This document shows positions 5,533-29,911 of a stretch of DNA of 64,000 bases, in pieces. The position numbers and the translations under genes are program-made. The notes below the pieces were generated by a model. That model was not told the origin of the DNA. It worked only from the letters and a program-made list of their open reading frames with translations, and did not search any database. Numbering within the stretch: position 1 is the stretch's first letter; every line of letters starts with the position of its first letter. The stretch lies in assembly GCA_017882585.1 (NCBI GenBank), contig JADGPF010000071.1, positions 1-64,000 of the forward strand. Reading direction: 5' to 3'. This DNA is from Thermoleophilia bacterium. GTDB lineage: Bacteria; Actinomycetota; Thermoleophilia; Miltoncostaeales; Miltoncostaeaceae.

Positions 5533-6288
5533 GTGAGTAACGTCGTCGTCCGTGTTCGGGGCGCGATCGTCATGTTGACGCTAGCGTTGCTCACCGTAGG
5601 GTGTTTGCTGCTCCCGGTCGGCGCCCAAGCCGCGCGCCGAGCACGACAGCCGGTCGCCAGGTCTCAGGCTGTGGTCAGGTTGCTCGCCACGCACGTCGTG
5701 CGTGCTCGACCGCTCGTCGCGAGCAGACGCGTCGCGTCGGTAAGCGCTACGCGCCCGATCACCGGCGAGCGCACAGTGTTGCCGCTCCTTGGCCAGTCGA
5801 TCGACAGCACTGGTCGGGTCTGGCTGCGCGTGCGCCTGCCTGGACGCGCCCTGAGGGGTGCGGCACCACCACGAACAGGCTGGATCCAGGCGAGCGATAC
5901 GCAGCGTTCGACCACGCCATGGCACATCGTCATCGACTTGAGTTCGCGTCAGTTGATTGTCTACCACGATGGTCGGCACATGCACACGTTCCAGGCAATC
6001 GTCGGCAAGGCGTCGACTCCGACGCCACAGGGCCTGTACTTCGTCGAGGAAGACGTGCGGCTGGGGTCGAACGCGCCAGGTGCCCCATTTGCCTTGGCGC
6101 TGAGCGCTCGTTCGCACGTCTACACGCAGTTCGATGGCGGTCCAGGTCAGATCGCCATCCATGGGCTCGCCCATCTTTCCGGGCAGCTCGGGACCGCTGC
6201 CTCACACGGCTGCGTTCGGCTCGCTGAGCGGGCGATCATGTGGCTTGCACAGCACATTGGCGCGGGCGTGCCGGTCACCATCCATTAG
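5533..6288 (+). CDS. L,D-transpeptidase (YkuD domain), exported
   Basis: HIVIDLSSRQLIVYHDGRHMHTFQAIVGK...IAIHGLAHLSGQLGTAASHGCVRL, catalytic HG...SHGCVRL motif; signal-peptide-like LTLALLTVGCLLLPVGAQA. Start may be ATG 5572. Confidence 0.88.
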   Translation: MSNVVVRVRGAIVMLTLALLTVGCLLLPVGAQAARRARQPVARSQAVVRLLATHVVRARPLVASRRVASVSATRPITGERTVLPLLGQSIDSTGRVWLRVRLPGRALRGAAPPRTGWIQASDTQRSTTPWHIVIDLSSRQLIVYHDGRHMHTFQAIVGKASTPTPQGLYFVEEDVRLGSNAPGAPFALALSARSHVYTQFDGGPGQIAIHGLAHLSGQLGTAASHGCVRLAERAIMWLAQHIGAGVPVTIH

Positions 6289-6662
6289 AGCGACGCCGGA
6301 TCGCACCGGCGTTGGTCGCATCCAACTTGCACGGGCGTCGATCTGCCAGGTCGAGGTCACGCGTGTGTCTTCGTCGGTCGCACCGGGAGCGCTTGCGACG
6401 GACGGTGTCGCCGGCGCGGCCCCCCCGGGGTACCGGACATCACGGTCCGTGCTGGCGGAGCCTGGCTCAGCACCGCGACGTGCCGCGATTGGCGAAGGTT
6501 GCGCGACGTCCGGTTGCGTGGGGGCCACGCCGGTCTCCACCGGTCGCATGCCGAACGCGGTCGACCGCGCCGCCGGGCACCTTATGCTGGCTGGGTAGCT
6601 ATGACAGTCAAACACCGGCGGACCGGTACCCGGGGGGGCCAAGGGCGTCGTGAGCCCGCGCC

Positions 6663-7493
6663 ATGATTCGATCCAAGGCCTCTCTTACGGCGGCGGCATT
6701 GGCGCTTGTGCTGGTCGTCGGCGTGGCGTTGGCCATCGCCCATGTCGGAATCTCGATCCACATCACGCTCGGTGGAGGAGCTTCCGGTGAGGCCCAGACG
6801 GCGCGCGTTGCCGTGTCGGCCATCGGACCTGCACGGGCGAGCACTCCGCTGTTTCCTGACGCGACGGGCGACGTCACGATCCGCATCACGAACCTCAACG
6901 TCCGGCCGGTGACGGTGACCGGTCTGGTGCTCCCGCCAGCGAGCGACTTCGCTCGTGGGTTCACCAGTCCAGCAATGGTCAAGGCCCGCGTTGGTTGCGA
7001 TGCCGAGAACTCTGGTGTCACCTGGGAGGGCGCAACCGCAAAAGGTGACAACGCCGATGCCCTGACGTTGCCGGTCGTGGTCGGGGCCCGGTCGTCGCTG
7101 GTTGCCACCCTGACGGCCGCGGCATTCATGGAGCTCTCCGCGCCACCGAGCTGCGAAGGCGCCTACTTTGCCATGCCTTCCCCGACGGGGGTCACCGCGT
7201 TCGCTGGAGGCGAGCCGACCCCAAGCCCCGTCATCGACGCGCTCGCCCCGCGGTGTCCGCCCCCAGGACCCCCACCTGGATACCCCGCAGGACCCCCACC
7301 TGGATACCCTCCGGGGCCGCCGCCAGGGCAGTCGCCGAATCCAGGACCCCCTGGGCCGCGGACACCGCCGCCGCGCGGCTCTGCAGGGTGCGGCCCGCCG
7401 CCCGCGTTCACTCCGCCGGGGCCATACCGCGGGGCCATTCCCGAATGGTCGGCCCCCACCCGCAAGGCATGCGGCCGTCGTGGCTGCAGGTGA
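6663..7493 (+). CDS. Hypothetical exported protein with proline-rich repeat tail
   Basis: 276 aa; N-terminal TM/signal; C-terminal GPPPGYP repeats. Confidence 0.6.
   Translation: MIRSKASLTAAALALVLVVGVALAIAHVGISIHITLGGGASGEAQTARVAVSAIGPARASTPLFPDATGDVTIRITNLNVRPVTVTGLVLPPASDFARGFTSPAMVKARVGCDAENSGVTWEGATAKGDNADALTLPVVVGARSSLVATLTAAAFMELSAPPSCEGAYFAMPSPTGVTAFAGGEPTPSPVIDALAPRCPPPGPPPGYPAGPPPGYPPGPPPGQSPNPGPPGPRTPPPRGSAGCGPPPAFTPPGPYRGAIPEWSAPTRKACGRRGCR
7262..7330. repeat. Short tandem repeats encoding PGPPPGYPAGPPPGYPPGPPPG
   Basis: 'ggacccccacctggataccc' repeated at 7267 and 7291, followed by a diverged copy. Confidence 0.7.
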
Positions 7494-7619
7494 CACCTTT
7501 AGAAGCACGAGCGGGTCAGCGCGGGATCTCGTGTACCGGATCGATGGAGCGCAGCCCGACGGGCGACGCTACGCGTTGGCGCGGAGCATCGCGACGACTT
7601 GGGCTTGCGCGGCGGGAGC

Positions 7620-8035
7620 GTCGGGATGGACGAACAGACAAAGATGCGTGCCGTGTTGCGGCGGACCTCGTGCAGCACTTCGACGAGACGCTGCCACTGC
7701 GCGTCGATGGGCTGATCTGCGTATCGCGGGCAGGGACTCCGCTCAACCTTCACAACTGGCGCATGCGGGTCTTCAGGTCGGCGCGCGAAGCCGCGGGTGT
7801 GCCGTGGGCGACCCCATACACGGGACGGCACACGTACATCTCGCTTCAAATACATGCCGGCATATCGCCGGTGACCATCGCGGCGATCGCCGGGAACTCG
7901 CCGGACGTGATCTGGAAGCACTACGCCCGGGAGTTCGAGCGCTCGCGCACCACCAAACACGTCGACCTTGAGGCGGCAATCGTGGCCGCGCGGCGGGAAG
8001 TGCGGGAATCCCGTGGACGCACGGTGGACGCATGA
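7620..8035 (+). pseudogene. C-terminal remnant of a tyrosine recombinase
   Basis: PLRVDGLICVSRAGTPLNLHNWRMRVFRSAREAAGVPWATPYTGRHTYISLQIHAGISPVTIAAIAGNSPDVIWKHYAREFERSRTTKHVDLEAAIVAARREV; N-terminal core-binding part missing. Confidence 0.8.
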
Positions 8036-19200: not shown

Positions 19201-20040
19201 CTAGGCGACCTGGTCACCGGCCGTGGTGGTCTCGGCGATCACCGCATTGGGGGGCTGCGCTTGCGCCGTGTGGGCCTCGCGGGTCAGGAAGCTCACTAGG
19301 TCGGTAACCGCGCTCATCAAGGGCGCGGGGAAGACGATCGTCGAGTTCTTGTCCACCGAGATCTCGACGAGCGTCTGCAGATTGCGCAGCTGCAGGGCGA
19401 TCGGATGCTGCATCATGATGTCGGACGCGTGAGCGAGCTCTGCGGCCGCCAGGGCCTCACCGTTGGCGCTGATGATCTTCGCCCGCTTCTCGCGCTCGGC
19501 CTCGGCCTCTTTGGCCATTGCCCGCTTCATCTCAACGGGCAGCTGGATGTTCTTGAGCTCGACGAGGGTCACGATCACGCCCCATGGCTCGGTCTGCACG
19601 TCCAGGATGTCGCGAATGTGTTTGTTGAGATCTTCGGTGCTGGTCAGGGCATCATCGAGACTGTGCTGGCCGATCACCGCCCGAAGGGTCGCCTGGGCGA
19701 TGTAGCCGATGGCCGACTCCACGTCCTCGATCGCAAGGACGGCCTGCACCGGATCGACCACCCGGTAGTAGGCGACTGCGGAGACGTCGACGGTGACATT
19801 GTCACGGGTGATGATCTCCTGCGATTGGATCGGCATCGTGACGATCCGTAGCGACACGCGGTGGATGCGATCGACGAACGGGACAATGAAAATCAGCCCG
19901 GGCCCGCGGGCCCCCTCGACGAGCTTGCCGAGTCGCAGCTGCACGCCGCGCTCGTATTGCTTGAAGACGCGGACCGCCATCGCCAAGTAAACGACGACCA
20001 GAATGACCACCACAACGACGGCACTGATCACGCCGCTCAT
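19201..20040 (-). CDS. SPFH/Band 7 slipin family protein
   Basis: VFKQYERGVQLRLGKLVEGARGPGLIFIVPFVDRIHRVSLRIVTMPIQSQEIITRDNVTVDVSAVAYYRVVDP. Confidence 0.92.
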   Translation of the reverse strand: MSGVISAVVVVVILVVVYLAMAVRVFKQYERGVQLRLGKLVEGARGPGLIFIVPFVDRIHRVSLRIVTMPIQSQEIITRDNVTVDVSAVAYYRVVDPVQAVLAIEDVESAIGYIAQATLRAVIGQHSLDDALTSTEDLNKHIRDILDVQTEPWGVIVTLVELKNIQLPVEMKRAMAKEAEAEREKRAKIISANGEALAAAELAHASDIMMQHPIALQLRNLQTLVEISVDKNSTIVFPAPLMSAVTDLVSFLTREAHTAQAQPPNAVIAETTTAGDQVA

Positions 20041-20152
20041 ATGTTCCTCCCCGCGCGGGGCTCGTGCATGCCCGGCGCCCGATTCGTCGCGACGCGAGCG
20101 CCAACCACGCCGCCTGAGTCGAGATTAGTCCTCCGGGCGACCGGGCGCCGGG

Positions 20153-21244
20153 TCAGCGCGGTGCAGTGGGGCTGACCTCGTGCCGCGCGATGCGCCCGTT
20201 GCGCCGCACGTCGGCGGCCGCGGCGGTATCGGCCATCTCAAGGTCGACGAGGCGTGAGAGCGCCTGCTCGACGGTCTGCATGCCGGCCTCGCCCGCGCGC
20301 ATGAGCTCGAGCAGCAGCTCCGGCGGGTCGGCGCTGGCGATTGCGCTGCGAACCTGCGGGGTCCCGCGGATGATCTCCGCCGCCGGGTTTCGGGTCGTGC
20401 CATCCGGCGCTCGCACCAGCCGCATGCCGAGGCCCGCCTGCAGCGTTGCCGCGAGGGACTGCCGGGCGACGCCCTGTCGGTGGACCGGAAAGAAGCTCAC
20501 GATCCGCGAGAGCGCATCGCAGATGTCGTTCGTGGTGAGGCCCGCGATCACCAGCGCTCCCGATTCCGCGGCCTGCAAGGCACCCTCCGCGGTGGCGAGC
20601 TCGCCGAGGTGGCCGATGACGACGACGTCGGCGTCTTGGCGCAGGATCGACGCCAATGCATCCGCTGCGGAAGGCGTGTCGAGTCCGACCTCGCGCTGAT
20701 CGATCGACGACAGGTTGTCGGCATGGAGGGCTTCGATCGGGTCTTCGATCGTCACGATGGACCGCGTTTGGGTGCGGTTCACGTGGTCGACCATGGCGGC
20801 CATCGTGGTCGTCGTCCCGGATGACGCCGGGCCGCACACGAGAATCAGGCCGGACTCGAGCTCGGCCAGCTCGGCCACGATCGGGGGCAGGTTGAGTTCG
20901 GCCAGTGCCCGCACGCCGTACGGGACGACCCGCATCACGATCGAGATCGACCCACGCTGCCGGAACGCGTTGATCCGGAAGCGTCCGACCTCGCGTCGCG
21001 TGAAGGCGAAGTCGACCTCGCCACGCCGCTCGAATTCGATCTGCTTGGCGGCATTGGGAAGGCTGGCCATCATCAGCGCCAGAATGGCCTCGGTCTGGTC
21101 CGGGGTCAGTGCCGGTGCGTCGAGGTGCTCGAGATGGCGGTTGACGCGCACCAGGGGAGGAGAAGGGACCTTGAGCCGCACGTCGCTCGCGCCGCGCGCG
21201 ACGGCCGCACGTACGACGTGTTCCAGGAGCTCGGCGGGGTCCAT
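20153..21244 (-). CDS. PilT/PilU-like secretion-type ATPase with degenerate catalytic motifs
   Basis: PilT-like fold sequence (VRVNRHLEHLDAPALTPDQTEAIL..., TIEDPIEALHADN, RQDADVVVIG) but Walker A reads GPASSGTTTT; start ATG at 21244. Confidence 0.85.
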   Translation of the reverse strand: MDPAELLEHVVRAAVARGASDVRLKVPSPPLVRVNRHLEHLDAPALTPDQTEAILALMMASLPNAAKQIEFERRGEVDFAFTRREVGRFRINAFRQRGSISIVMRVVPYGVRALAELNLPPIVAELAELESGLILVCGPASSGTTTTMAAMVDHVNRTQTRSIVTIEDPIEALHADNLSSIDQREVGLDTPSAADALASILRQDADVVVIGHLGELATAEGALQAAESGALVIAGLTTNDICDALSRIVSFFPVHRQGVARQSLAATLQAGLGMRLVRAPDGTTRNPAAEIIRGTPQVRSAIASADPPELLLELMRAGEAGMQTVEQALSRLVDLEMADTAAAADVRRNGRIARHEVSPTAPR

Positions 21245-21337
21245 GAGGGTGGTATCGGCGCGGGTGCGCCGGGCTTGATCGATCAGGCGGCGCCCCAGTG
21301 CTTGAGGGCCCCCGTGTGACGACCGATAGAAAGTCCC

Positions 21338-22432
21338 ATGAACCCCGCAACTCTTCCGCCGATTCTCATCGTCGACGATGGCGCACTCACCCGCGCATGG
21401 GTCGAGCACGTCATCGACCACGGCGGGTGGCGCGCCGTGTCCGTCGTCGCCGCCGCCGCCGCAGATGCCGCGCACGAGTACGGCCCTGACGCGATCGTGG
21501 TCACCGAGCGTGGACTGCCCGATGGTGGGTGCGTCCTGGCACGCCGACTGCGGGCCGCGGGCGTGGGCGCCGGCATCCTGATCATCGGCGACCCCGACGA
21601 TCTGGAACTCGAGGCCGACGCGATGGACGCCGGCACCGACGGCGTGCTGCGCTGGCCGTGCGGGATTCCGGAGCTGTGCGACGCGCTGCGCACGACGGCC
21701 GGCGTCGGCGCCGGGCGCAGGCTTCAGCATGAACGCGCGACACACCTGGACGGCGAGATGCGTGCCGCGGCGATGATCCAGTCGGCGTTGCTGCCCGAGC
21801 GTCCCGCGCTTCCGGACGGCTGGGCCCTGCAGAGTGCCTTCCTGCCGGCCCAGGACGTCGGCGGTGACATGGTGGATTTCGTCACCGACGATCCCGCCAG
21901 GCTCGCGATCGTGCTCGCGGACGTGTCGGGCAAGGGTGTGGGCGCGGCGCTGCTGGCCGCGATGGCCCAGACGGCGATCCGGGGCGCGCTCTTGCGCGGC
22001 GCGAACCCTGCCGAAGCACTCTCCGATGCGAACGCCCTGCTGTTGGAGACGCTGGACCGTAGCGGACGCTTTCTGACCGGCTTCGTGGCAAGCATCGATC
22101 TGGACTCGGGCGAGCTCGTCTACGCCGATGCGGGTCACGGGCATGTCGCGCTCCACGATGCGGCCGGCGGTTGGATGCCGATCACGGCGGGCGGGTTGCC
22201 GCTTGGCCTGGTCGCGGGCGCCGACTACCCCCTGGGCCACGCACGGTGTGCTCGCGGCGGCCTGCTGGCCGCGTACAGCGATGGCCTGGTAGAGGGCTCG
22301 GACCTCGATCCGTCCGTGGTGCGCGAACGCCTGCTGGGCGCGCTTGCGGACGGAATCACCGCCGCGCAGCTGGTCGCCGAGGCGCCGGCCGACGACGATC
22401 GGACCCTGGTCGTGCTTGGCAGGGACCGGTGA
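21338..22432 (+). CDS. Pseudo-receiver + PP2C/SpoIIE-type serine phosphatase (RsbU-like)
   Basis: ILIVDDGALTRAWV receiver-like N-terminus; DVGGDMVDFV, LADVSGKGVGAALLAAM, YADAGHGHVALHD, LAAYSDGLVEG PP2C motifs. Confidence 0.88.
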   Translation: MNPATLPPILIVDDGALTRAWVEHVIDHGGWRAVSVVAAAAADAAHEYGPDAIVVTERGLPDGGCVLARRLRAAGVGAGILIIGDPDDLELEADAMDAGTDGVLRWPCGIPELCDALRTTAGVGAGRRLQHERATHLDGEMRAAAMIQSALLPERPALPDGWALQSAFLPAQDVGGDMVDFVTDDPARLAIVLADVSGKGVGAALLAAMAQTAIRGALLRGANPAEALSDANALLLETLDRSGRFLTGFVASIDLDSGELVYADAGHGHVALHDAAGGWMPITAGGLPLGLVAGADYPLGHARCARGGLLAAYSDGLVEGSDLDPSVVRERLLGALADGITAAQLVAEAPADDDRTLVVLGRDR

Positions 22433-22824
22433 GGCGCCACGTCTCGCTCGAGCTGGCTGCCGATCCCGCCGGCGTCGATGAGGCCGCCCGTCGGGTCGTC
22501 GCGCTGCTCGATCGCGTCGCGCCTGACGTAGCGTTTGCCTGCGAGCTGGCCGTGGCAGAGGCGTGCGCAAACATCGCCCGCCACGGGTTCGCCGGCACGG
22601 CCGGGCGCATGCGGGTGGTGGCTCGTGCCAGCGACGCCCGTCTTGCGGTCGCGATCTGCGACCGGGCGCCGGTCTTCGCCGGGTCGGCACCACCGATGCC
22701 GCCCGCCGAGGCCGAGGGCGGCCGTGGCCTGCCGCTTCTGGCCGCGTGCATGGACAGGGTGCGGTGGTTCCGCACCGATGGAGAGAACCGCCTCTTGATG
22801 GCCCGTCGACTGGATGTCTGCTGA
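22429..22824 (+). CDS. RsbW-like anti-sigma factor/serine kinase (HATPase)
   Basis: ACELAVAEACANIARHGF (N box), EGGRGLPLLAACMDRVRW; GTG start overlaps the upstream stop. Confidence 0.85.
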   Translation: MRRHVSLELAADPAGVDEAARRVVALLDRVAPDVAFACELAVAEACANIARHGFAGTAGRMRVVARASDARLAVAICDRAPVFAGSAPPMPPAEAEGGRGLPLLAACMDRVRWFRTDGENRLLMARRLDVC

Positions 22825-24341
22825 TGAAGAACGTCACCGTGATTGACACCTCCCCGCGCGCACCCCGTTCGGCGCGGCCTCGGCTCCGGAGCATTTCTGT
22901 TGAGGCGTCCGTGCCGTCGCTACTCGCCGCGCTCGGGCAGGGTGACACGCCGCTCGGGGCCGTGTTGCGGCAGACCGGCGAGCTCAGTGGCATGCCGTCG
23001 GTCGTATTCTGGAAGCCCGACGGGCGCAGGCTCCAGCTTGCGTACCGCCACGGGGACGACCTGCTTCCGCCCGAGGGCAACGGGATGCGCTTGCTCGGCG
23101 GCAGCGACCAGGACGACGTGGGCACACAAGGCATTCCGTTGATGATCACCGCAAGTGCGGCAGCGCAGGCGCATGTGATGACCATCAACGGCAGTTGGTT
23201 CGCGGCCATCGGGGCGGGTGGCGGCCTGCTGGCCCTCGGGCCGTTTGGCGAGCGTGAGCTTGGCCGCCGGGACCGGCGGGAACTCATCGCCCTGGCAGCG
23301 CTTTGTGACGCGCCACTGCGCCAGGCCCTACGGATCGGCGAACTGACCGATCAGGTACGTGCGCTGACGCGCGAGGCTGATCTGCACCGCCGCTCGCTCG
23401 GATCGGCAACCGACGAGGTTACCTCGCTCGGCCTGCTGCTCGAGCTCGCCGTCAGTACCTCGGGCTCAATCGGTGGGTTTGTGGCCGTTCGGGAGGGGGA
23501 TGCGCTGCGGATTGCCGCCGAGCGCGGTGCCCCCGTCGGCTTTGTGGCGCTGGATCTGACACCGGGACACGGCGTGCTGTCGGCGGTGCCCGGCGTGCCG
23601 GGGGTCCTGTTCGTCGACGGCTACGAGGCACTATTGGATCTAGGCATCGGTGGTCTCGTGGCGGTCGGCGGACCGCAGGACGCAGCCGACCCGCAGATCG
23701 TGATGGGCCTGTTCTCGGACGCGGACGGCGTCCTCGAACCCGATTGCGCGCCGATGCTGAGCACGCTGGTCGACGTCGCGGCGATCGTGATGACCAGTGC
23801 GGAGGTGGCCCGGGGCACCGCCGCACGGCATCTGGCGGCCCTTGAGGCGCTGTGTCGAGCCCTCGATGCCCGCACGCACGCGACCAAGCACCATCACGCG
23901 CGCGTTGCTCAGAGCGCGGCGGCGATCGCCGTCGGACTGGGGCTCCCGGCCGAGCGCGTCGCGCTGGTCACCCAGGCAGCGCGGATCCACGACGTGGGCC
24001 TGATCGCGGCGACGAGCGACGCCGCGATCGCCGCCGAGTTCGCACACCCGGCGGTCGGCGCCGACATGGCCGCGTTGGTTCCCGGGGCCGCCGAGCTCGC
24101 CCCGATTATCCGTGCCCATCACGAGTGGTGGGACGGGTTCGGCTTCCCGAACGGCCTGCTCGGGGAGGCCATCCCCATCGAGGCCCGAGTGCTGGCCGCG
24201 GCCGAATTCTCCGTCGAGACCTGCCAGGCCGACCCGTCGCTCGACGCCGCCGCTCTCGTCGGCGAGATCCAGTCGCGTTCCGGTGGCCAGCTCGACCCCG
24301 CATGTGCTCAGCAACTCATCGACATCATTCAGGAGCCGTAA
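22824..24341 (+). CDS. GAF-like + divergent HD-GYP domain protein
   Basis: AARIHDVG, FAHPAVGADMAALVPGAAELAPIIRAHHEWWDGFGFPNGLLGEAIPIEARVLAAAE; two GAF-like N-terminal segments. Confidence 0.78.
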   Translation: MKNVTVIDTSPRAPRSARPRLRSISVEASVPSLLAALGQGDTPLGAVLRQTGELSGMPSVVFWKPDGRRLQLAYRHGDDLLPPEGNGMRLLGGSDQDDVGTQGIPLMITASAAAQAHVMTINGSWFAAIGAGGGLLALGPFGERELGRRDRRELIALAALCDAPLRQALRIGELTDQVRALTREADLHRRSLGSATDEVTSLGLLLELAVSTSGSIGGFVAVREGDALRIAAERGAPVGFVALDLTPGHGVLSAVPGVPGVLFVDGYEALLDLGIGGLVAVGGPQDAADPQIVMGLFSDADGVLEPDCAPMLSTLVDVAAIVMTSAEVARGTAARHLAALEALCRALDARTHATKHHHARVAQSAAAIAVGLGLPAERVALVTQAARIHDVGLIAATSDAAIAAEFAHPAVGADMAALVPGAAELAPIIRAHHEWWDGFGFPNGLLGEAIPIEARVLAAAEFSVETCQADPSLDAAALVGEIQSRSGGQLDPACAQQLIDIIQEP

Positions 24342-24671
24342 ATGCAGATCACCATGTCCACCGAGACCGACCCGATGATCACTGCGGTGGTCGGTCGACT
24401 CGACCTCCGAACCGCGCCCGAACTGCGCGCCCAGGTGACCGCGGCGCTCGCGGCCGGACCGGGGTCGATGATCGTCGATCTCAGCGACGTCGAGTTCATC
24501 GACTCGTCCGGTCTGGGCGTCCTCATCGGGCTGCACAAGCGGGCCGAGGCGCAGGGCGGCCGGCTGACGATCGTGCCGCCGTCCGGGAGCGCGCGCCAGA
24601 TCTTCGCGCTCACCCGCACCGAATCGTTCTTCAACATCGTTCCGAATCCGCACGCCGCGCTGGGCGGCTGA
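24342..24671 (+). CDS. STAS domain anti-anti-sigma factor (RsbV/SpoIIAA-like)
   Basis: GRLDLRTAPELRAQVTAALAAGPGSMIVDLSDVEFIDSSGLGVLIGLHKRA; phospho-acceptor DSSG motif. Confidence 0.92.
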   Translation: MQITMSTETDPMITAVVGRLDLRTAPELRAQVTAALAAGPGSMIVDLSDVEFIDSSGLGVLIGLHKRAEAQGGRLTIVPPSGSARQIFALTRTESFFNIVPNPHAALGG

Positions 24672-24722
24672 GCCCTCCACCGGTGGGTCGCATCCCCGCC
24701 GGGCAACGAAAGGAATCGTCGC

Positions 24723-25774
<1,052 letters not shown>

Positions 25775-25775
<1 letters not shown>

Positions 25776-27253
25776 TGCACGTCCTGCTCGCCACTGAGGG
25801 CACCTACCCGTTTGTCGACGGTGGCGTGACGACGTGGTGCGCGCAGCTGATTGATGGCCTGGCCGATGTCCGGTTCACGGTCTATGCGGTGACCGGCGAC
25901 GTGACCGCACGCCCGCTGTTTGACGTGCCACGCGACACGGTCGTGGTGCAGGTGCCTCTGTGGGGTGTCGAGCACCCGTCTGAGTGGGGACTGCCGACCG
26001 GCGGGACCCTGGATCTCATTCGCCGCACCCGTGCCGCGCAAGGGGCCAAAGCGGAGCAGTTTGCCGAGCTCTTGACCGGATTCCTGCGCGACCTCGACGC
26101 GCCGCAGGCCGATCCGGCCGCAGCGGCACGACGGCTCGTCGCGCTCCACCGGTTCTTTCTCGAGTACGACATGCTCGCCGCGCTCGGGTCCGATCCGGCG
26201 TGGGATGCGCTGGTTGCGGCAGCACGCTGCTCGATCTGGGCGGGGGCTGCGACCATCGGCGACCTGACCGCATGTATGCGCTGGCTGCGGGCACTGATGA
26301 TGCCGCTGGCGGTGCCGGTGCCACAGGCTGATCTGACCCACGTCACCATCGCCGGTCTTGCGGCCGTGCCCGGAATCATCGCCCGCCTGGAGCGCGGGAC
26401 TCCGATGATCGTCACCGAACACGGTGTCGCGCTGCGCGAGCGCTACCTGGCCATCCTCACCGATCCGACGCTGTCGGACGCGCAACGGCGCTTCATGGTC
26501 GCGGTATCGGAGTTGATGACCGCGATCACCTACACGCTGGCCGACGTCGTTGCGCCGGTGTGCGCATGGAACGGGCGCTGGGAACGCCAACTCGGCGTCA
26601 AGGAATCGGCGCTGCGCGTGATTCCGAACGGTGTGGACCCCTCAATCTTCGTGCCGCGCGACAAGCCGCCCACCAGTCCCGGTGCCGACCGACCGACCGC
26701 GGTGGCCGCCGCACGGGTGTTCCCGCTCAAGGACATCGAGACGATGATCCGCGCCGCCCAACGGACGCGCGAGCACGTACCGGAGGCGCTGTTTGTCGTC
26801 TACGGGTCGCTGACTGCCGACCGGCCGTATGCCGACCGGTGTCGGGCGCTGATCGCCGAGCTCGGGCTCCAGGCGGACTTCCTGCTTGCCGGACTCGCTC
26901 CTGAGCCGACCGACATCTTCAACCAGGGTGATATCGCCGTGCTGTCGAGCGTCTCGGAGGCATTTCCGTACACAGTGCTCGAGGCGATGTCGTGCGGGCG
27001 TCCGGTTGCCGCGACCGACGTCGGCGGCGTCCGCGAGATCATCGGCGGCTGGGGAGAGTTGGTACCCCCGCGGGACCCCGTGGCACTCGGCGACGCCTGC
27101 GCGCGGCTGCTGTCCGACGGACGCCGACGTGGCGAGCTTGGACGACGCGGACGCGAGCGCGTGCTGGCGCACTTTCGTGCGTCCGACGTCGCCACCCAGT
27201 ATCGCGCGCTCTATCACGAGTTCGTCATCGACCAGGATCTGGTGACCGCGTGA
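25775..27253 (+). CDS. pelF: PelF-like glycosyltransferase (GT4, DUF3492-type N-terminus)
   Basis: LLATEGTYPFVDGGVTTWCAQLIDGL; TEHGVALRERYLAIL; RVIPNGVDPSIFVPRDKP; LSSVSEAFPYTVLEAMSCGRPVAATDVGGVREII. Confidence 0.75.
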
Positions 27254-28830
27254 GCACGACCAGCTCCGCCCAACGGCCGATCAGCGATGTCGAGACCGCG
27301 GCACGACGGGTCATCGAGCGGGTTGGCGTGCCGACCCACGAGCGCGCTACGGTGGCAACGCTCGAGAGCGAGGGGCTCCGCGATGCGGATGCCGCGCTTA
27401 TTGAGTCCGGGTGCAGCGACCTCTTCGCCCTCGGGCACGTCGTCCACCTTCGCGCGCTCGAGCTCTCGGAGGCCGCTGCGACGCTTGCGGTGCCGACGGC
27501 GCCGGTCGGTGTACGTCCACGCGCGGATTGGCGGCGCATCATGCGCACCTACGCGCTCGGGATCGGATACTCGCTGCCGCTGATCGCCCTCGGTCTGGGC
27601 GTGCTCGTGTTCGGGATCTCCCTGTGGGGCTCGCCGCAGCTCTCCGCGCCGGCCAAGTCCGGGATGGCGCTGGGCGTCTTGGTCAGTCTGGTGGTCTCGG
27701 GGCCGTTCACGTACGCGATGACCCGGCGCATCTTCTACTACTGGTACCAATACGACCCGCGGGCGCTCGCCCGGACGGTGGCGCGCTGGACGCTCGCTGC
27801 CGTGGCGTGCGGCGCGGTGTGTGCGCTGATCGCGATCGTATGGGCGGCCCTCGCCGAGAGCCCCACGGGCTTCACCGTGGCGCTCTCGGCGGTCCTGCTG
27901 CTCCAGGGGCCGATCTGGACCTGCACGTCCGCGTTGTACGTGATCGGGCGCGCCTGGATGGGCGGGGTCGCCCTCGTCGTGCCGGTTGTTCCGCTGTGGC
28001 TCGCCCTGCGGGCCGGCGCGAGCCCGCTGCCGGCACATCTCATCGCGTTGGCTGCTGCGGACGCGCTCCTGATCGGCGCGACCTGGTGGTCGCTCGCCCG
28101 GCTTCCGGCCCGCTCGGTGCCGGCACGTGATCCGCTGCCCGCGCCGCTGATGGCGCTCTCGGTCGGCGGCTTCGCCGCCTGGGGCGCGGTCTACTACCTG
28201 CTGCTGTTCGGCGACCGGCTGGTCGCGTGGGTCACCCCGTCGGGCGCGCACTTTGCGCCCGGCTACGAAACGGCGCTCGAGCTCGCACTGATCCCACTGG
28301 TGTTCGCGATGCCAATCCTCGAGTTCACGCTCATCCGCGTCGCCGAACACATCGAGGAGCTTCAAGACGAAGGCGGGCTCGCGGACGTCGAGCAGCTGGG
28401 GGTCCGTATCCAGGCGGTCTTGATGTGGACCGTTGGCGCCGCGTTGGCGCTCTATGCCGGACTTGCGTGTTTGGTGCTCGTGCTCGCCCGCGCGACCGAT
28501 CGACTGCTGCCGGACAATGTGGGCGCCGCCGTCCAGCACGGGGCCGGGTGGACCGCACTCGTAACGGCGACCGCCGCCTACGGGTTCCTCATCCTCGGCC
28601 TGGGCATCGGCACCGTGTTTCAGCTGGTTGCACGGCCGTGGATGCTCGTGCGCGCGGGTGCGGTCGGGGTCGTGGTCAATCTGGTCGTCGGCGCCACCAT
28701 GCGTCACGGGTCGGGGCCGCAGGCCGCCGCCTATGGTCTGGTGGCCGGCACGGCGGCGTTCGCGCTGATGATGCTCTTCACCTGGCGCGCGAGCCGCCCC
28801 AAGATCGCCCAGTGGTGGGCCGCGACGTAG
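27250..28830 (+). CDS. pelG: PelG-like polytopic membrane protein (putative exopolysaccharide flippase/transporter)
   Basis: 526 aa, many TM segments; GPFTYAMTRRIFYYWYQYDP, AVYYLLLFGDRLVAWVTPSG; overlaps pelF-like gene. Confidence 0.68.
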   Translation: MSTTSSAQRPISDVETAARRVIERVGVPTHERATVATLESEGLRDADAALIESGCSDLFALGHVVHLRALELSEAAATLAVPTAPVGVRPRADWRRIMRTYALGIGYSLPLIALGLGVLVFGISLWGSPQLSAPAKSGMALGVLVSLVVSGPFTYAMTRRIFYYWYQYDPRALARTVARWTLAAVACGAVCALIAIVWAALAESPTGFTVALSAVLLLQGPIWTCTSALYVIGRAWMGGVALVVPVVPLWLALRAGASPLPAHLIALAAADALLIGATWWSLARLPARSVPARDPLPAPLMALSVGGFAAWGAVYYLLLFGDRLVAWVTPSGAHFAPGYETALELALIPLVFAMPILEFTLIRVAEHIEELQDEGGLADVEQLGVRIQAVLMWTVGAALALYAGLACLVLVLARATDRLLPDNVGAAVQHGAGWTALVTATAAYGFLILGLGIGTVFQLVARPWMLVRAGAVGVVVNLVVGATMRHGSGPQAAAYGLVAGTAAFALMMLFTWRASRPKIAQWWAAT

Positions 28831-28849
28831 CCCTGAGCGCTCCGGTGCG

Positions 28850-29722
28850 TCAGGTGCAGGGAATCCGCAACTTGCCGTTCAGGCTCGGGTCGTAGCGCCC
28901 TGCGACGCGCCCGGCGGCGAGCGCAGCGGGACAGACGGCCAACGGCGACGCCGTGTACTCGATCTCGAAGATCGCCTTGTGTGCGGCGGCATACGGGGCG
29001 GTCATCCCGCAGACGCCTGCCGGAAAGCAACTCTCGACGATCGCGAAATCGAAATAGGGCTCGAGCGCCGCGGTCTGGTCGAGGTAGTCGAGCTGGCCAA
29101 TGCTCAGTCCCACCGAATGTGCGATCTCCGTGAGCTTGATCAGATACGCGTTGACCTCGGCGACGGTCAGCGGGGACCCGTTGAAGCTCACCCCGTGGCC
29201 TTCGGCCTCGTCGGTCCCATCGGGCTGGATGGCGTCGAACCCCTTGCTCTTGCAGTTCTCGAACTGCTGCTCTTCGAGATCGAGCAGGGTGGAGTAATAC
29301 GGGCCGGCAGGGTTGGTGTTCAGCCAGCGGTCGGTGCCATTGAAGACCTGCCCCTTGAGTGGCGCCCACCTGGGGTCGTTGGCGTCGTACATGTAGGGCG
29401 TCCACTCACCGACTGGGACGTAACAGAGTACGTGCGCACCGCGGTTGTGCAGCTGGTCGACGGTCGTGGACGGGTTGTTGTTGCCGTCAATGTCGTACAC
29501 CGTCGGCGGCTTGGCCGGACCGCCGAGGTAGTTGAACTCGCCGTCGCCAAGGTCGGTCGGGCTGGAGGTGTCGAGCGGGGATCCGAGTTTGATCAAGAAC
29601 GTCGAGTTCGCGGGCGGGACCCAGTACCCGCGCCCGAGCGAGCGCCAGATGACGAACGCACCAATGGCGGCCGCCACGACAACGATGCCGAGGGCAATGG
29701 GGATCAAGCGGTTGACGTTCAC
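28850..29722 (-). CDS. Membrane-anchored GH114 family endo-alpha-1,4-polygalactosaminidase-like protein
   Basis: N-terminal TM; TVYDIDGNNNPSTTVDQLHNRGAHVLCYVPVGEWTPY...CKSKGFDAIQPDGTDEAEGHGVSFNGSPLTVAEVNAYLIKLTEIAHSVGLSIGQ. Confidence 0.8.
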   Translation of the reverse strand: MNVNRLIPIALGIVVVAAAIGAFVIWRSLGRGYWVPPANSTFLIKLGSPLDTSSPTDLGDGEFNYLGGPAKPPTVYDIDGNNNPSTTVDQLHNRGAHVLCYVPVGEWTPYMYDANDPRWAPLKGQVFNGTDRWLNTNPAGPYYSTLLDLEEQQFENCKSKGFDAIQPDGTDEAEGHGVSFNGSPLTVAEVNAYLIKLTEIAHSVGLSIGQLDYLDQTAALEPYFDFAIVESCFPAGVCGMTAPYAAAHKAIFEIEYTASPLAVCPAALAAGRVAGRYDPSLNGKLRIPCT

Positions 29723-29911
29723 CGGTCCGGAGCTCCGTTCCTGGCGCTCGGGCGGCGACCGGCTCGCATCCGGCAACGTCCCCCCGGGACCTCCGCAGGA
29801 TACGTGTGCGGCCCCCGCGCCGTCATCCGGCCGGCTGTGGGTGCCGCACCGGCCACCGCCCGCGCTCCCCATCCCGCGGGGATCGCGGGGTGACGGGGGG
29901 CGCGACGCGCG

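Follow-up and report, generated by a model that had tools for sequence, protein, structure and literature searches.

The closest described relatives of the protein considered here are the retraction ATPases PilT and PilU (TIGR01420), in which an N-terminal domain is joined to a RecA part. It was demonstrated in V. cholerae that PilT deprived of ATPase activity still forms rings and that its contacts with PilU and PilC persist (PMC6821130); these ATPase-dead proteins are laboratory Walker A or Walker B mutants acting together with an active PilU, and no signalling partner is involved. In G. metallireducens PilT, the distance between H230 and T221 tells open from closed subunit interfaces (PMC6858323). 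Partner switches, on the other side, control polysaccharide, biofilm or motility, as exemplified by the syp system of V. fischeri (SypE/SypA) and the hmp system of Nostoc (HmpU/V/W) (PMC8256260). In the syp switch, SypE unites kinase, receiver and PP2C modules, and no PilT relative appears in the system as described. Gram-positive pel operons (pelDEADAFG) encode PelF and PelG, and the main text of their description makes no mention of STAS or PilT (PMC7112168). As to the coupling between pili and matrix production, its mechanism has been called incompletely defined (PMC9239167). No description of a natural pseudo-PilT was found in the literature on pseudo-ATPases or degenerate PilT, which is weak evidence, given that most subscription papers lay outside this search.

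The window, i.e., the whole stretch of 64,000 nucleotides that was analysed, corresponds to contig C4 in a draft genome (G000) of 1.74 Mb and 82% completeness. It carries a PilT relative, hereafter pseudo-PilT, facing a partner-switch and Pel-like gene block, with the following features:

19201..20040, minus strand: SPFH/Band 7 protein, one flank of the block, syntenic in sister genomes
20153..21244, minus strand: pseudo-PilT (P0001), 363 aa, PilT/PilU family by translation, profile and structure matches
20534..20536, minus strand: His-box His position, codon 237, acc = Thr
20609..20611, minus strand: Walker B Glu position, codon 212, cac = His
20813..20815, minus strand: Walker A Lys position, codon 144, acg = Thr
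21245..21337, unstranded: divergent intergenic region of 93 bp, common to pseudo-PilT and the receiver-PP2C gene
21338..22432, plus strand: pseudo-receiver with SpoIIE/RsbU-type PP2C phosphatase, 364 aa (SpoIIE 116.7 bits; Response_reg 24.3 bits, below cut-off)
22432..22824 (reading frame), plus strand: RsbW-like HATPase_c_2 serine kinase/anti-sigma-type protein (Pfam 71.2 bits)
22824..24341, plus strand: HD-GYP-like protein, 505 aa, with HHEWWDGFGFPNGL at the GYP motif (Pfam HD_5 58.2 bits)
24342..24671, plus strand: STAS protein, RsbV/SpoIIAA-like, FIDSSG (Pfam STAS 69.9 bits)
24723..25775, plus strand: GT4 glycosyltransferase with PelF-related C-terminal half and glycine run (NF038011 103.2 bits, residues 162-344)
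25775..27253, plus strand: PelF-like GT4 glycosyltransferase, 492 aa (NF038011 PelF 164.6 bits, cut-off 100)
27250..28830, plus strand: PelG-like membrane protein, 526 aa (Pfam PelG 24.5 bits, below cut-off 29)
28850..29872, minus strand: GH114 glycoside hydrolase, other flank of the block (Pfam 130.4 bits), also present in sister genomes without the block

The minus-strand reading frame at 20153-21244 is free of stops over its 363 aa and is matched along its full length by TIGR01420 (E=1.4e-93), at 313.9 bits slightly below the cut-off of 319.1; its Pfam match is T2SSE, and its best PDB matches are PilT. Its GC content by codon position (0.74/0.49/0.86) is like that of the neighbouring genes. 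The original prediction, that the Walker A Lys, the Walker B Glu and the His-box His are all replaced, was borne out at each site: Walker A reads GPASSGTTTT with Lys144 replaced by Thr (acg), the Walker B stretch reads LRQDADVVVIGHLGELAT with Glu212 replaced by His (cac), and the His box reads AGLTTND, hence LTTND for LHTND, with His237 replaced by Thr (acc). The Asp box TIEDPIE, predicted to be kept, is indeed retained together with QREVG. An AlphaFold2 model built from 20 sequences reached a pLDDT of 89.5 and a pTM of 0.86, with values below 50 only from residue 352 on, and the nearest solved folds in Foldseek were Geobacter PilT4 (6ok2), Thermus PilT2 and Pseudomonas PilU (9n32). Pseudo-PilT is therefore predicted to retain the PilT fold (N2D plus RecA CTD), the model speaking to the fold and not to oligomers or ligands. 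Thus, it resembles PilT/PilU in fold, length, domain architecture, Asp box, QRE, an identity of 45-49% and the N-domain arginines R88, R90 and R105; unlike them, it lacks the Walker A Lys, the Walker B Glu and Arg and both conserved histidines. By fold and descent it is a PilT relative; judged by the catalytic features tested, it is not a PilT ATPase.

A homology search across 60 relatives yielded many canonical PilTs at 45-49% identity, with a protein of genome G021 (contig C205) as the differing match. A second orthologue (G180, contig C93) was found with a profile of the PP2C neighbour among 399 genomes of the class. Both orthologues are 43-49% identical, belong to other genera and, in the case of G180, to another family. 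In the order G000, G021 and G180, the Walker A Lys position is occupied by T/V/V, the Walker B Glu position by H/S/A and the His-box His position by T/S/R, the corresponding motifs being GPAGSGVTTT, GSLDD and VSTAD in G021 and GGAGSGVTTT, GALPD and AQRSPD in G180. Against the TIGR01420 cut-off, the G180 orthologue scores 319.6 bits, i.e., above it, and that of G021 282.9 bits. Conservation of the Thr/His/Thr substitutions themselves, which had been proposed as a check, did not hold, since the substituted letters differ; the loss of all three residues is what is conserved. Because the same three residues are absent from two orthologues, a sequencing error or chance lesion is excluded, and with it a pseudogene in the window. 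The locus is sparsely distributed, with three finds in several hundred genomes, the census being a sample of genomes; it can be called rare because a phylum search with the PP2C neighbour (397 genomes) gave just two weaker matches, G409 and G437, neither with an adjoining PilT relative.

The distribution of the losses was evaluated in an alignment of 78 PilT-like sequences, 66 of them canonical, i.e., carrying Lys, Glu/Asp and His at the three sites, so that full conservation of Lys and His in this group exists by construction. Among the 57 positions at least 95% conserved in canonical PilTs, all three pseudo-PilTs retain 34, some of them retain a further 15, and all three deviate at 8 (T140, K144, H162, E212, R214, H230, T235 and H237). 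All eight lie within or adjoining the Walker A, Asp-box, Walker B or His-box motifs, and five of them (T140, H162, R214, H230 and T235) had no part in defining the group. In G000, G180 and G021, respectively, R214 became G/P/D and H230 became A/A/V. By motif alignment, H237 probably corresponds to H230 of G. metallireducens PilT. Gly138, Gly143, Thr146, Thr147, the Asp box (E167, D168, P169 and E171) and QRE are invariant in all three pseudo-PilTs.

A shift of constraint was also observed. In canonical pairs of 30-80% identity, similarity is lower over the N-domain (8-120) than over the RecA part (121-280) in 2,113 of 2,113 comparisons, the N minus RecA difference being at most -0.002 and its bin means lying between -0.16 and -0.25. 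For pseudo-PilT, the N-domain is the more similar part in each of the three pairs (0.549 vs 0.444, 0.558 vs 0.469 and 0.584 vs 0.475), against 0.36 for the N-domain and 0.57 for RecA in canonical pairs at matched overall identity (0.46-0.50); these three comparisons depend on one another, and pseudo-PilTs have diverged further than most canonical pairs. The N-domain is thus held tighter than in equally diverged canonical PilTs, which decay would not produce. The least conserved stretch of pseudo-PilTs is the C-terminal part, residues 251-363 (0.16-0.36 identity). Loss of the AIRNLIRE motif was considered as a sign of lost retraction and dropped, since the neighbouring canonical PilT group also lacks it. 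By these comparisons, selection maintains pseudo-PilT and acts most strongly on its N-terminal domain. Its status as a pseudo-enzyme, probably descended from a PilT paralogue, is well supported.

The divergent placement relative to an RsbU-type neighbour, pointed out in the original prediction, recurs in all three loci (L083 and L115 besides the window). In each of them, the phospho-acceptor Asp is gone from the receiver of the PP2C protein (window 21338-22432; L083 12375-13478; L115 8205-9317), a co-occurrence that, at 3/3, is a small number. The receiver motif reads PDVLIAEEAIP in G021 and PDVLVVEDDLP in G180, with Glu at the Asp position in both, and PDAIVVTERGLP in the window, where Thr or Glu stands at this position depending on one alignment gap. 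The Asp is present (PDVLLLDVSMP) in the G409 homologue, which adjoins no PilT relative. The PP2C motifs GGD, DVSGKG, DAGHGH, SDG and DD.T are intact. Since the receiver Asp and the PilT catalytic residues are lost together, both facing gene products are left without canonical input chemistry.

The seven plus-strand genes at 21338-28830 look like one operon, their overlaps being short or their gaps at most 51 bp. SpoIIE, HATPase_c_2 and STAS all exceed their Pfam cut-offs in the window, and the same set occurs at the other two loci, with HATPase and STAS fused into one protein in G021. The order receiver-PP2C, HATPase, HD-GYP-like, STAS, GT4, PelF and PelG-like is repeated on contig C93 of G180, so that the seven-gene operon ending in GT4-PelF-PelG-like is found in two of the three genomes. 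Within the 19.9 kb examined at the G021 locus, no PelF or PelG match was found at 1e-4; in a further genome, G243, the Pel and partner-switch genes form an operon that lacks a neighbouring PilT. Therefore, Pel was ruled out as an obligatory partner, and the constant company of pseudo-PilT is the partner switch. As in the syp and hmp systems, a PP2C phosphatase, an HATPase kinase and a STAS protein stand at a polysaccharide locus; unlike in syp, the receiver is without phospho-acceptor and is paired with a pseudo-PilT. As in the Gram-positive pel operons, PelF and a PelG-like membrane protein are accompanied by a c-di-GMP-type (HD-GYP-like) gene within the operon; unlike in these, no PelD, PelE or PelA deacetylase was recognised in the block, and partner-switch proteins are placed in front. 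The absence of PelD, PelE and PelA refers to the Pfam matches of the seven operon genes, to which that search was confined, and no cognate sigma factor or other output is encoded within the operon. The adjoining GH114 gene is of the PelA-hydrolase type, but the same site is occupied in sister genomes devoid of the block. In these sisters (G001 and G002), SPFH, GH114 and gltB are contiguous (window 20130-28840 compared with L091 and L093), so that about 8.7 kb (20.1-28.84 kb) were gained here or lost there.

Some further features of these genes were observed. The HD-GYP-like proteins of three operons (window 22824-24341; L115 ~6281-8010; L126 6641-8410) have GFP for GYP and HDxGL for HDxGK, and are possibly altered c-di-GMP phosphodiesterases. 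The GT4 protein at 24723-25775 contains a run of about 15 glycines, and its G180 homologue has a Gly/Asp-rich low-complexity segment at the same place. The window's genome has another PelF-like gene on a different contig, C12 (L131 1386-2780).

The proposed mechanism combines these elements. Pseudo-PilT would no longer perform pilus retraction and would serve as a non-catalytic scaffold or adaptor, docking onto the divergently encoded receiver-PP2C protein, probably via its N-domain and possibly as a ring. Such docking would set the activity of the PP2C phosphatase, whose receiver would have lost its usual route of phosphorylation, and pseudo-PilT would thereby take the place of the phospho-signal of ordinary RsbU-type systems. 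Phosphatase and RsbW-like kinase would in turn decide whether the STAS protein is phosphorylated, and the STAS protein would turn on or off either the Pel-like glycosyltransferase operon or a regulator of that operon. Divergent genes are not required to encode interacting products. We infer the regulatory mechanism, and likewise the lack of ATP turnover, from sequence. Each half of the mechanism has a precedent, in the dead PilT rings of V. cholerae (PMC6821130) and in the syp and hmp switches (PMC8256260). That pseudo-PilT is a non-catalytic scaffold or input of a partner switch controlling a Pel-like polysaccharide is considered an even call. The original suggestion of a pseudo-ATPase kept as scaffold or regulator agrees, as far as sequence goes, with the orthologues, the loss confined to the active site and the retained fold. 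It is rather doubtful, although conceivable, that a PilT-family protein has turned wholly into a signalling subunit that pairs with a receiver not open to the usual phosphorylation and controls an RsbU-type partner switch. If true, a retraction-motor fold would govern polysaccharide synthesis directly, without ATP turnover and even without type IV pili, and would perhaps report the state of the envelope or of the pilus. A natural, conserved PilT without ATP-handling residues also offers a means of telling the scaffold role of the ring from its motor role. Paired as it is with Pel-like genes and a switch of the RsbU/RsbW/RsbV type, it would link pilus-type machinery physically and directly to matrix production.

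Other explanations were weighed against this reading. Pseudo-PilT could join or cap canonical PilT at the PilC platform and tune retraction, the partner switch then coordinating pili and polysaccharide, just as ATPase-dead V. cholerae PilT supports PilU-driven retraction (PMC6821130, PMC6762196). A canonical paralogue was indeed found in the window's own genome, where contig C29 encodes a PilT with GATGSGKSTT, GEMRD and LHTSD, adjoined by genes for a PilB-type ATPase and for a platform protein of the PilC type; no second canonical PilT is present in this draft, which, at 82% completeness, is little proof. G021 has two canonical PilTs and PilB, so that a pilus-linked role is possible in these two genomes. 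In G180, however, which is 95% complete, pseudo-PilT occurs without any canonical PilT or PilB, and there it cannot act through canonical PilT, unless pilus genes sit in the missing part; its two other T2SSE matches lie next to paired T2SSF domains and would be Tad-like ATPases. A role requiring canonical PilT is thereby weakened. Additionally, in all three genomes the pseudo-PilT gene is located outside pilus loci, unlike in PilT/PilU systems, and residues 251-363 are its least conserved part. Even allowing for missing contigs, a retraction role is therefore less likely and is regarded as improbable. As a separate observation, neither T2SSE nor T2SSF was matched anywhere in sister genome G002 (99% complete), this species having lost its pili while relatives keep them.

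Pseudo-PilT could also be a noncanonical active nucleotide binder, with a P-loop working without the Walker Lys or with a relocated residue, and function as a slow nucleotide sensor. The retained P-loop glycines and Thr146-Thr147 make weak nucleotide or phosphate binding possible, the invariant Asp box and QRE would count against a pure protein-docking surface, which would not need them, and essential residues are relocated in some pseudoenzymes (PMC10211241). A relocated Walker Lys was nevertheless rejected, because no lysine is found in or beside the Walker A loop in any of the three proteins, and the joint loss of the Walker B Glu, the following Arg and both histidines would be expected to remove hydrolysis as well as binding, which leaves such a sensor distinctly improbable. 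A decaying pseudogene or remnant on a horizontally moved operon would be in line with the absence of the 8.7-kb block from G001 and G002, the scarcity of finds and the long branches of the three proteins. Against it, the reading frames are intact in all three genomes, near-invariant positions outside the active site are kept, the N-domain is 55-58% identical across genera, and every pseudo-PilT pair shows more differences at third codon positions than at the first and second. Decay is refuted for the three known copies, and this explanation is very unlikely as a whole. The scaffold or input role in the partner switch is the reading preferred here.

Regarding their origin, the three pseudo-PilTs form one group (SH-aLRT 96 in a quick tree; bootstrap/SH-aLRT 92/84 in a careful tree), and their nearest neighbours are canonical PilTs of the same bacterial family located beside an RpoD-like sigma-factor gene, an assignment made by reading of translations. 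The pseudo-PilT branches are long and the tree program warns of long branches meeting; for this reason, orthology is better supported by gene order than by the tree. In all five loci concerned (L084, L085, L087, L090 and L095), the family's second canonical PilT was seen near the RpoD-like gene, away from pilus genes. A PilT relative from a locus labelled Actinomycetota (L035 6001-7008), in which the Walker Lys is replaced by Arg and the His-box His by Ala and the Glu is kept, groups next to the pseudo-PilTs (98; 93/98). No partner-switch genes are found beside it at this locus, and it may be an intermediate or a separate recruitment.

Other altered PilTs were noticed in distant groups. Myxococcales PilT relatives (L046 5095-6981, L048 5059-6945, L050 5110-6981 and L044 394-1338), which form adjacent pairs in three contigs, constitute a separate lineage with the Walker A Lys kept and with altered Walker B and His-box motifs (SELSS and ATFPASG; SDMRD or ADMRD and TMNMPS). 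In Desulfobacterales, L051 6001-8133 has two neighbouring divergent PilT-like genes, one of them with GDLRD and LPTTS at the Walker B and His boxes. An Omnitrophota relative (L039 3263-4249) has altered Asp and His boxes (TLESPIE, ATFPATD), the Walker Lys and Glu being kept. In all these degenerate PilTs of Myxococcales, Desulfobacterales and Omnitrophota the Walker Lys is preserved, and none of them groups with the pseudo-PilTs in the tree.
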